Shown here: piece after piece, positions 34,513 through 36,899 of the stretch | How positions within the stretch are numbered: position 1 is the first letter of the stretch | Layout: each line of letters opens with the position of its first letter | Assembly (NCBI GenBank): GCA_903862885.1 | Contig: CAIOZU010000030.1 | Coordinates: 1-40,743, forward strand | DNA from: an uncultured Pseudomonadota bacterium | GTDB taxonomy: Bacteria; Pseudomonadota; Gammaproteobacteria; Steroidobacterales; Steroidobacteraceae | Direction of reading: 5' to 3' | DNA length: 40,743 bases | Notes under the pieces: generated by a model | The model's input: only the letters and a program-made list of their open reading frames with translations | Told to the model about the DNA's origin: nothing | Databases searched by the model: none | Translations under genes and position numbers: made by a program

Positions 34513-34692
34513 CCGGCTATTGTCGCTGATTTGGGCCTAAAAAGCCCCTGTGATGACCGGTACGGTGCTGTTTTATAAGGGCATTACGCAGGTGATATAG
34601 GTGTTTTCACGAGTGGCGGCCCACGAACAGCCCCCTACACTGGAGCTCAGAGACCACTCCTCTGCCGCACACTCCCCTTGGAATCACCGACC
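34513..34692. promoter_or_regulatory. Divergent upstream region of ygiQ and the cytochrome pair
   Basis: A 180-base gap. It holds a small inverted repeat (GGGC, CTAAAAA, GCCC) and AT-rich stretches such as TTTTATAA and GATATA that could be -10 elements. No convincing -35/-10 pair or known operator is assigned. Confidence 0.35.
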
Positions 34693-36063
34693 ATGCCATG
34701 CCGCACCGATTCTCAGAGCCTAACGACCATTTGGATGGCGATCCTTGGCACCCTGATCGTGACGCTCCTGCCAGCCGCCGCCCACGCCGTCCCAAGCTTC
34801 GCCCGTCAGACGGGTGTCGCCTGCGAAGCCTGCCACACAGTCTTTCCGGAACTCACCCATTTTGGTCGGCTATTCAAAGCCAACGGCTATGTGCTCGATA
34901 CCCGCACCCAAGTCAAAGATGTGAACGCGGAGCGCCAAGAGATGCTGTCGCTTGCCAGCCTCCCGCCGTTGTCTTTAATGATCCAAGCCTCCTACACACA
35001 GCTCGCCACCCCCTTACCGGACGCTGCCGGTCACGGTGCTGCCCAAAATGGCGTGGCCGCCGTACCCCAGCAAGTGAGCCTTTTTTACGCCGGGAAGATC
35101 GCCCCGAATCTCGGCGCTTTTTTACAACTGACCTACGAGAATGACAGTGGCACGATCGGCATTGATAACGCCGATATCCGCTACGCAAAAAATATTCTCC
35201 TGCCGGATGACCAGTCGCTGATCTATGGCCTCTCCTTGAATAACAACCCGACCGTTCAAGATCTGTGGAATTCTACGCCCGCCTTTGGTTTTCCCTATGC
35301 CGCCTCCAATTCCGCACCGGGCAGCCCCTATGCCACGCAAATTGACGGCACTCGTGGACAGGATGTGGCGGGTATCACCGCCTACGCGCTTTGGAATGAG
35401 TCGGTCTATGGTGAGTTGGGTCTTTATCGTTCCGCCAAACAAGGAACGGCCTCGCCCTTAGACAGCACCACCCCCGGTGGCGTGTTGGCCAGTTCCGCCC
35501 CCTACTGGCGTGTGGCCTATGAACGCAATTGGGGTGCGCACTCCTTAGAGGCCGGCTTATACGGCGCTACATTTAAGATCTATCCGGACTTCGGTCAGGG
35601 CTTTGGACAGGCGCTTCGCGGCCCGAGTGATCGGTATCGCGATGTGGCCTATGACCTACAGTATCAATACGTGGGTGATCTCCACTTGTTTACCCTGACA
35701 GCGACTCACATCGCCGAGAAACAAACACTGGACGCGACCCTGACCGCCGGCATGAGTAGCCAAGCACGCAATGAGCTCAATACCACGCGGGCTTTTGCGA
35801 CGTATTACTACCAACGTAAAGTGGGCGGCACCGCGGGTGTTTTCAGAACCTCAGGCAGCACCGATGCGTTGATCGCACCCCACTCACCTGACACGGCGGG
35901 CTGGGTGATGGAGGTGAACTACATGCCGTGGCTTAACACCAAGTTCGGCATCCAATACACCGCCTTCAGCAAGTACTCAGGCCTTGGCAGCAACTATGAC
36001 ATGGCCGGACGAAATGCCAAAGACAACAACACCTTGTATCTACTTGCCTGGCTATCCTACTGA
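34693..36063 (+). CDS. Cyc2-like fused monohaem cytochrome c / outer-membrane beta-barrel
   Basis: A 456-residue exported protein. The signal peptide ends in PAAAHA (cleavage after about 32). The mature N-terminus is VPSFARQTGVACEACHTVFP, with a single haem-c site CEACH at 44-48, followed by ELTHFGRLFKANGYVL. The rest (about 75-456) has no further Cys. It is rich in alternating aromatic/hydrophobic strands (VSLFYAGKIAPNLGAFLQLTYE, VYGELGLYRSA, WRVAYERNWGAHSLEAGLYGA, DVAYDLQYQYVG, KFGIQYTAFSKYSG) and ends LYLLAWLSY, as an outer-membrane porin would. A short N-terminal cytochrome fused to a barrel of this size is the architecture of Cyc2, the outer-membrane iron oxidase of Acidithiobacillus and neutrophilic iron oxidisers. 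The FARQTG..C..CH motif is known in that family. Iron oxidation is inference. ATG 34693 is preferred to TTG 34678. A diheme cytochrome gene follows 13 bases later. Confidence 0.8.
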   Translation: MPCRTDSQSLTTIWMAILGTLIVTLLPAAAHAVPSFARQTGVACEACHTVFPELTHFGRLFKANGYVLDTRTQVKDVNAERQEMLSLASLPPLSLMIQASYTQLATPLPDAAGHGAAQNGVAAVPQQVSLFYAGKIAPNLGAFLQLTYENDSGTIGIDNADIRYAKNILLPDDQSLIYGLSLNNNPTVQDLWNSTPAFGFPYAASNSAPGSPYATQIDGTRGQDVAGITAYALWNESVYGELGLYRSAKQGTASPLDSTTPGGVLASSAPYWRVAYERNWGAHSLEAGLYGATFKIYPDFGQGFGQALRGPSDRYRDVAYDLQYQYVGDLHLFTLTATHIAEKQTLDATLTAGMSSQARNELNTTRAFATYYYQRKVGGTAGVFRTSGSTDALIAPHSPDTAGWVMEVNYMPWLNTKFGIQYTAFSKYSGLGSNYDMAGRNAKDNNTLYLLAWLSY

Positions 36064-36076
36064 GCGCGACAGACCT

Positions 36077-36751
36077 ATGACCCTGAATCAGATCCCATCG
36101 CGCCTACACGGTCGTTCACAGCGTCTTCTACGACTCAGTCGACTGAGTCTTTTCGGGTGCGTCTTTAATTTGGCTTTGGGTCTGGCGCTCGCTGACACCC
36201 CAGAGCAACGCATCACCCACCACGCCACGCACCTGGCGGTCGAAGCCTGTGGCACCTGCCATGGGGCACAGGGGGTGAGCCAGCTCCCTAAGATCCCCAA
36301 CCTCGCCGGACAAGACGCCGACTACCTCAGCGCGCAACTCAAAGCCTTTCGCAACCAAACCCGTGGCGATCCGGATGCCATCGGCTACATGTGGGGCATG
36401 GCCGCGGCTTTAGATGATGAGACAATCGCCGCCCTCGCCAGCCACTACGCGACCCACACACCGAGCGCCGGGCGAGTGAGTCACTCGAGTGCACTGCCCA
36501 TGGGCCGTCGACTCTATCAAGAGGGATTACCCGATCAGGGCGTGCCGGCCTGCAGTGCCTGTCATGGCCTCGATGCGCACGGACTCGCCGGCTTCCCACG
36601 ACTCGCCGGTCAGCACGCACAATACCTGCTGAAGCAACTGCGCTCCTTCCAAAACAATATGCGTGATGTGGCGGTCATGCACGGGGTCACGCAAGGACTC
36701 AAGCGCGCTGAGATGGAGTCAGTCGCCGCTTATCTCGAGAGCCTACCGTAG
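36077..36751 (+). CDS. Diheme cytochrome c, c4/c553 type
   Basis: A 224-residue periplasmic cytochrome with two tandem cytochrome c domains. The signal peptide runs to about 39 (ALGLALA then DTPEQ). Haem 1 is CGTCH at 58-62 followed by PKIPNLAGQDADYLSAQLKAFR. Haem 2 is CSACH at 159-163 followed by PRLAGQHAQYLLKQLRSFQ. The Met ligands are probably in YMWGMAAALDDE (105/108) and NNMRDVAVMHG (195/201). The layout is that of cytochrome c4, a soluble or membrane-attached electron shuttle between bc1 and terminal oxidases. In A. ferrooxidans the diheme c4-type Cyc1 is encoded beside Cyc2 and takes its electrons. Here the gene begins 13 bases after the Cyc2-like gene, so the two very likely form one operon. 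ATG 36077 is chosen for the signal peptide. Confidence 0.92.
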   Translation: MTLNQIPSRLHGRSQRLLRLSRLSLFGCVFNLALGLALADTPEQRITHHATHLAVEACGTCHGAQGVSQLPKIPNLAGQDADYLSAQLKAFRNQTRGDPDAIGYMWGMAAALDDETIAALASHYATHTPSAGRVSHSSALPMGRRLYQEGLPDQGVPACSACHGLDAHGLAGFPRLAGQHAQYLLKQLRSFQNNMRDVAVMHGVTQGLKRAEMESVAAYLESLP

Positions 36752-36857: not shown

Positions 36858-36899
36858 AAAGCCCCTTCACGTCGCGGTACGCGATCTTGAAGGGGCTTT
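36858..36899. terminator. Bidirectional terminator between the c4 and porin genes
   Basis: AAAGCCCCTTCA (36858-36869) is the exact complement of TGAAGGGGCTTT (36888-36899). An inner stem TCGCG/CGCGA (36872-36876 and 36880-36884) closes on GTA. On the minus strand seven T residues follow the stem, an excellent terminator for the porin. On the plus strand TTTC plus CGTTTC follows, weaker but usable for the cytochrome unit. Confidence 0.85.

Follow-up and report, generated by a model that had tools for sequence, protein, structure and literature searches.

The locus described here raises the question of whether two adjacent genes in an uncultured member of the Steroidobacteraceae encode proteins that together take up electrons from outside the cell and, if so, from which donor and by which route. 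A sequence-only reading of the window, i.e. the whole stretch of 40,743 nucleotides analysed here (contig CAIOZU010000030.1), had assigned the first protein the architecture of Cyc2, and likened the second to the diheme c4 cytochrome encoded by cyc1 in Acidithiobacillus ferrooxidans. The first gene and its sequence marks are as follows:

34693..36063, + strand: cyc2-like gene, 456 aa, with signal peptide, mono-haem N-terminus and predicted 16-strand porin body
34786..34812, + strand: AVPSFARQT, residues 32-40, matching the published Cyc2 signature AXPXFAR[Q/K][T/Y]
34822..34836, + strand: CEACH haem site, residues 44-48, the sole CXXCH of ORF1, followed by PEL (PXL motif)

ORF1 begins with the ATG at 34693 and stops at 36063, an alternative TTG start being possible at 34678, and its signal peptide, judged by eye, ends in AHA, before V, at residues 32/33. 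According to Keffer et al. (2021, PMC8406198), Cyc2 proteins are marked by the motif AXPXFAR[Q/K][T/Y], one CXXCH, a PXL, a length of at least 365 aa including the signal peptide, and a 16-strand porin. We found all of the sequence marks in ORF1: the haem stretch reads CEACHTVFPEL, with one CXXCH and a PXL just after it, the CXXCH stands directly after the signal peptide, as the earlier reading had stated, and the 456 aa, counted with the signal peptide assigned by eye, exceed the published lower bound. Searches of Pfam, NCBIfam and PDB sequences with the ORF1 protein gave no match; because no family model covers ORF1, its membership of the Cyc2 family rests on the published motif, the fold and the tree.

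For the fold, AlphaFold2 run on a 71-row alignment gave a model with 16 strands of at least nine residues (pLDDT 81.8, pTM 0.80). The haem segment of this model had a pLDDT below 50, and the prediction was made without haem, so the model does not give the position of the plug. The best Foldseek matches of the model were porins, with 6ehe at the top (E 8.9e-10) and OprP (2o4v), which is named as a Cyc2 template in PMC8406198, at rank 10; the query-normalised TM-scores were modest, 0.35-0.48 among the 50 matches listed. These results support a 16-strand porin-like barrel as the predicted body of ORF1, its closure being judged from the porin matches, and agree with the beta-rich, porin-like body expected from the sequence.

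A scan of one genome per species yielded 417 relatives, the best 80 of which were kept; 70 of these 80 loci entered alignment A1 and 22 entered a 60-row Cyc2 tree. The exact AXPXFAR[Q/K][T/Y] motif was present in 70 of the best 80 relatives, one CXXCH plus PXL in 79 of them (the exception being a copy that ends at a contig edge), and the haem region held 8 of the 11 invariant columns of a wide alignment. In the tree, whose references are mostly without names, the window fell in a 43-row clade (support 100/97), and an inner clade of 28 rows (100/98) held both the window and the Cyc2 of locus L107, the two being 37% identical over 454 aligned columns, full-length. L107 is a rus-like operon, composed of cyc2, one gene without assignment, COX1, another such gene, CtaA, a UbiA-family gene and a gene for a rusticyanin-like copper protein (137 bits, under the 146.7 cut-off of TIGR03095). 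From L107 we infer a cluster-2-like place for the Cyc2 of the window; the A. ferrooxidans Cyc2 has been placed in Cluster 2. The signature, single haem, length and predicted 16-strand porin body are shared with the Cyc2 proteins of Acidithiobacillus and of rus-like operons, a likeness drawn from the published marks and L107 and not from a named chromosomal A. ferrooxidans Cyc2. Taken by its full signature, modelled strands and tree placement, ORF1 is a genuine Cyc2-family protein, as proposed earlier, which would be located in the outer membrane and carry an inserted haem.

Several observations were made on the wider family. One distant clade of the tree, mostly made up of family f220, looks Zetaproteobacteria-like; by our own count, f220 supplied about 65 of the 88 matching genomes in a phylum-wide sample. 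A second distant clade is characterized by AMPAFARQY-type motifs, and any name given to it would be tentative. In the order of the host, L116-L118, L120, L122 and L123 form a divergent Cyc2-like group, also with AMPAFARQY-type motifs and with no haem ORF directly downstream. Named relatives were found on nine plasmid records, from Caballeronia, Paraburkholderia, Methylocystis, Ideonella, Acidiphilium, A. ferrooxidans and Polymorphobacter. For example, L124 (CP084173.1, 45689-54942) has a cyc2-like gene and an adjoining transposase on a plasmid of A. ferrooxidans strain YQ-N3, in a neighbourhood much like that of Acidiphilium cryptum pACRY03 (L130), suggesting recent transfer or a mixed assembly.

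The second gene and the end of the pair comprise the following features:

36077..36751, + strand: cyc1-type dihaem cytochrome c4 gene, ATG at 36077, 224 aa, two CXXCH
36248..36262, + strand: first c4 haem site, CGTCH (CXXCH motif)
36551..36565, + strand: second c4 haem site, CSACH (CXXCH motif)
36858..36899, + strand: hairpin between the c4 gene and a convergent porin gene, -27.8 kcal/mol, z -6.4, likely transcription end

The gap between the two genes is 13 bases (36064-36076), exactly as first read. We found that a c4 gene lies directly downstream of cyc2 in 75 of the 76 loci that could be tested among the best 80 of 417 relatives, i.e. those in which 500 bases or more follow the cyc2 gene, with L052 as the exception; a cruder clustering of neighbours caught c4 in only 40 loci, and any other family in at most 11. 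Chance adjacency of a porin gene and a c4 gene was ruled out by these 75 conserved pairs, and the short gap and the adjacency argue for a probable co-transcription of the two genes. The pairing is not universal in the family, since L107 and several other distant copies have no dihaem ORF directly after cyc2. In comparison with the nearest relative, L002, changes fell at codon positions 1, 2 and 3 in numbers of 62, 46 and 219 for cyc2 (453 codons) and 49, 37 and 117 for c4 (215 codons), i.e. mostly at third positions, and thus both genes look to be under protein-level selection. It is highly improbable, in our estimate, that ORF1 is a porin with a vestigial haem motif beside an unrelated c4: the failure of any Pfam or NCBIfam model or PDB sequence to match it would suit such a protein, but the CXXCH and PXL retained in all of the 80 loci except the one truncated at a contig edge, the invariant columns gathered around the haem and the nearly constant c4 neighbour speak against it.

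The pair is flanked by ygiQ, which is divergent, and by the porin gene, which is convergent. The hairpin was not listed by a simple terminator scan, and a sigma-70 promoter scan at the pair gave nothing above chance. No known iron-oxidation genes were present among the neighbours, and clustering of neighbour families revealed no cox or rusticyanin cluster shared across loci. A complete rus operon was ruled out at this site, the neighbours being ygiQ and the porin gene, with no rusticyanin, cup or cox genes beside the pair.

The closest PDB chain to the c4 of the window was 1h1o, with 127 bits as against 108 for 1etp. We take 1h1o to be the c4 (Cyc1) of A. ferrooxidans. By contrast, the nearest other c4 of the host, of which 176 of 220 residues were used, favoured 6q2u (126 bits) over 1h1o (91 bits). 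The host has two c4-like matches besides the partner, one of which was scored with internal stops though an intact dihaem ORF is present there. In a 40-row tree built with a subset of the linked c4s extracted from 74 loci, 34 Cyc2-linked c4s (window and plasmid rows included) together with 1h1o split from five others with a support of 94/91, just short of the star mark of the tree tool, and both further c4-like proteins of the host fell among these five. In addition, a stretch with YMW was present in 65 of 75 c4s (the window and the 74 linked proteins), the other ten having FMW or YMY there, and YMW was absent from the other two c4-like proteins of the host. An ordinary c4 was thus ruled out for ORF2 by the PDB ranking and the c4 tree. 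These comparisons support the view that the second gene encodes a dedicated Cyc1-type c4, distinct from ordinary c4s, in line with the partner originally suggested. It resembles the A. ferrooxidans Cyc1 in being a dihaem c4, in having that protein as its nearest solved structure and in the shared YMW stretch; in PMC8406198, Cyc1 is equated with the c4 described by Abergel et al. (2003).

The order of the genes, with a Cyc1-type c4 following cyc2, is also that described for Acidithiobacillus (PMC10654088), in which cyc2-cyc1 heads rus operons and stand-alone cyc2 and cyc1 occur as well. It is probable, judging from these protein and gene-order comparisons, that the pair is a Cyc2-Cyc1-type electron-uptake module oxidising Fe(II). 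In such a module, dissolved Fe(II) would enter the outer-membrane Cyc2 barrel and pass one electron to its only haem c, located at the periplasmic opening, and the dedicated periplasmic c4 would then shuttle the electron toward the only haem-copper oxidase detected in the host, with the HiPIP of the host perhaps taking the place of rusticyanin as an additional carrier. The earlier reading had left room for a donor other than iron, and we consider it unlikely that the same machine draws its electrons from a source other than dissolved Fe(II), be it reduced humic substances, a redox mediator, another metal or an electrode-like mineral. According to PMC8406198, the function of homologs far removed from the tested Cyc2 proteins is uncertain, and Cyc2 homologs occur in organisms not known as iron oxidisers, so that additional functions are possible; moreover, the Cyc2 of Ca. 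Tenderia electrophaga has been linked to electrode oxidation (PMC5371394), and several relatives of the window come from MAGs for which we read habitats such as lakes, peat and mine waters from the names of the isolates. However, all three Cyc2 proteins with biochemical evidence oxidise Fe(II), and it has been argued that a mono-haem porin requires a donor small and soluble enough to enter the pore (PMC8406198). The MtoAB/PioAB systems likewise take up electrons at the outer membrane, but consist of a separate 26-strand porin and a decahaem cytochrome (PMC8406198), whereas the function predicted here would reside in one mono-haem fused protein.

Oxidation of Fe(II) by the pair would require a route for the electrons in the host, whose genome (G000, 2.79 Mb, 99.3% complete) contains this one Cyc2. 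No rusticyanin was detected in the host genome at E 1e-3, so that the absence of a rusticyanin gene beside the pair, noted in the first reading, holds in the window and extends to the whole genome at this threshold; the A. ferrooxidans Cyc1, unlike the c4 of the window, works beside rusticyanin. As for the oxidase, none is present beside the pair, as had been stated, but the host does have a haem-copper oxidase elsewhere in its genome, encoded by one COX1 gene within what, judged by eye, is a cluster of cox genes. The host also has one HiPIP gene, the presence of which says little, because most members of the family (31 of 36) have HiPIP. A HiPIP gene is located within 1.2 kb of cyc2 in L012, L013, L019, L066 and L125, the last on a Caballeronia plasmid, and this proximity makes HiPIP a suggested carrier where rusticyanin is missing.

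RuBisCO was not detected in the host genome, and we therefore propose that iron would be a supplementary electron source and that the host is not a Calvin-cycle autotroph. Among the other genomes of the genus, a Cyc2 match was found in 13 of 14, one of them (G007) with the type of about 42% only, and RuBisCO in 4 of 14. A second Cyc2 type, about 40% identical, was observed in genomes of this genus (L112:14386-15879, - strand, and L114:7892-9271), and in G009 it shares a contig with the first. Counts from our tables showed no association of Cyc2 with RuBisCO in the family of the host, RuBisCO being present in 7 of the 21 members whose Cyc2 match reached at least E 1e-60 and in 4 of the remaining 15. 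The pair thus differs from the Acidithiobacillus rus operon in lacking adjoining cup, cox and rusticyanin genes and in belonging to a host in which no RuBisCO was found.

The region upstream of cyc2 offers a clue to how such a pair might be switched. We found that the relatives have a common upstream motif, TAGGTAGTTnCC, which resembles published FixJ sites. The upstream tests used 72 sequences, taken from the window and from those loci that had a usable ATG and sufficient sequence; control upstream regions were taken from simple ORF calls, with start codons chosen by rule. Specifically, the 6-mer TAGGTA occurred upstream of cyc2 in 18 of 72 sequences, as against 1.2 expected, and the derived motif yTAGGTAGTTnCCg, at a score of at least 12, in 28 of 72; the corresponding counts were 4 of 432 for shuffled sequences and 11 of 467 for other upstream regions of the same loci. 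When each group of similar upstream sequences was held out in turn, with a threshold of 10, the motif was recovered in 24 of 72 sequences (19 of 59 groups). Among the controls, it was found in 2 of 216 shuffled sequences and in 11 of 590 draws made from other upstream regions. All but one of the 24 matches were located 82-130 bases before the start (e.g., L009:2402-2419), the remaining one being at 158. Further occurrences of the motif include those preceding a CRP/FNR-family gene in L074 and, in L068, a gene that matched no Pfam model.

Published forms of the sites include the FixJ sites GTAGTTTCCC and GTAMGTAG and the fixK site TAAGTAATTTCCCTTA (PMC4999443). Several thresholds were tried for each published FixJ site form. 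The published TAAGTAATTTCC was found at up to three mismatches in 19 of 72 sequences, as against 27 of 468 other regions (Fisher 6e-7 for this comparison, kinship ignored) and 24 of 432 shuffles; at four mismatches it was found in 46 of 72 as against 124 of 468, yet also in 171 of 432 shuffles. The other published forms were enriched more weakly. GTAGTTTCCC was found in 1 of 72 (4 of 468 others) at one mismatch and in 20 of 72 (50 of 468 others, 66 of 432 shuffles) at two, and GTAMGTAG in 4 of 72 (4 of 468 others) as an exact match and in 21 of 72 (49 of 468 others, 44 of 360 shuffles) at one mismatch. The corresponding position of the window is as follows:

34598..34611, + strand: TAGGTGTTTTCACG, 95 bases before the start codon, no more than a weak version of the FixJ-box-like motif seen in the relatives

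This site, TAGGTGTTTTCACG, is at the usual distance but scored only 6.5, a value reached by about 10% of controls (scores above 6 were obtained with 23 of the 216 shuffles and with 52 of the 590 draws), and it differs from the fixK site at 4 of 12 positions.

A candidate regulator is present in the host. Within about 7 kb of the pair, 8 of the 80 loci have a gene of one response-regulator family and 11 of one histidine-kinase family, a single member of each being checked against Pfam; the regulator in L036 has a receiver and a LuxR-type domain. The host encodes a FixL/FixJ-like pair at L169:8801-11373 (contig C14), in which the kinase adjoins the regulator. This regulator is 67% identical to that of L036, and its closest structure is the response regulatory protein 1yio (191 bits), with FixJ (5xso) behind at 167 bits. 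The first PAS domain of the kinase best matched FixL structures (E 6e-29); the aligned haem histidine is kept, and one neighbouring arginine of wild-type FixL is replaced by alanine. It is possible, and we propose it tentatively, that a FixL-FixJ-type oxygen switch drives the Cyc2-Cyc1 pair: a FixJ-like regulator would bind the putative TAGGTAGTTnCC box about 80-130 bases upstream, iron would be oxidised only at suitable oxygen, and hosts need not be autotrophs; the box of the window may have decayed, or the variant may be tolerated. No paper naming Cyc2 was found among the matches listed in a literature search for Cyc2 together with Fix regulation, and FixK control of the pio iron-oxidation genes is known (PMC3050613).

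The same upstream motifs in the relatives would also suit a redox or stress valve, in which the pair balances electrons at low oxygen or protects the cell from Fe(II) or reactive oxygen without conserving energy, as would the occurrence, in seven loci, of a universal stress protein gene cluster close by (one member checked against Pfam) and the host genome without detected RuBisCO. We regard such a valve as quite improbable, however, since the presence of a dedicated Cyc1-type c4 speaks for a respiratory chain and a third of the family members with a strong Cyc2 match (the 7 of 21 given above) do have RuBisCO.

Cyc2 in uncultured Steroidobacteraceae is already published, and the window adds another example. 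The Cyc2 of MAG 28, a Cyc2-bearing putative Fe(II) oxidiser of this family (PMC8357290), corresponds by record title to L046, which shares 50% identity with the window and has a c4 downstream; MAG 28 is listed with carbon fixation (PMC8357290), whereas no RuBisCO was found in the host of the window. With this Cyc2 and the cyc2-cyc1 order of Acidithiobacillus (PMC10654088) published, the present pair is of a kind already in print. What the data indicate is that the cyc2-c4 pair is a fixed unit in this Cyc2 branch, and that the pair of the window is, from the comparisons above, most likely an Fe(II)-oxidising electron-uptake pair in an organism without detected RuBisCO, thus adding a near-complete genome of this type to those of the presumed iron oxidisers. 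It is the proposed FixLJ link that merits testing; should the FixJ-like box be genuine, it would provide a simple, testable handle on the switching of Cyc2 iron oxidation.
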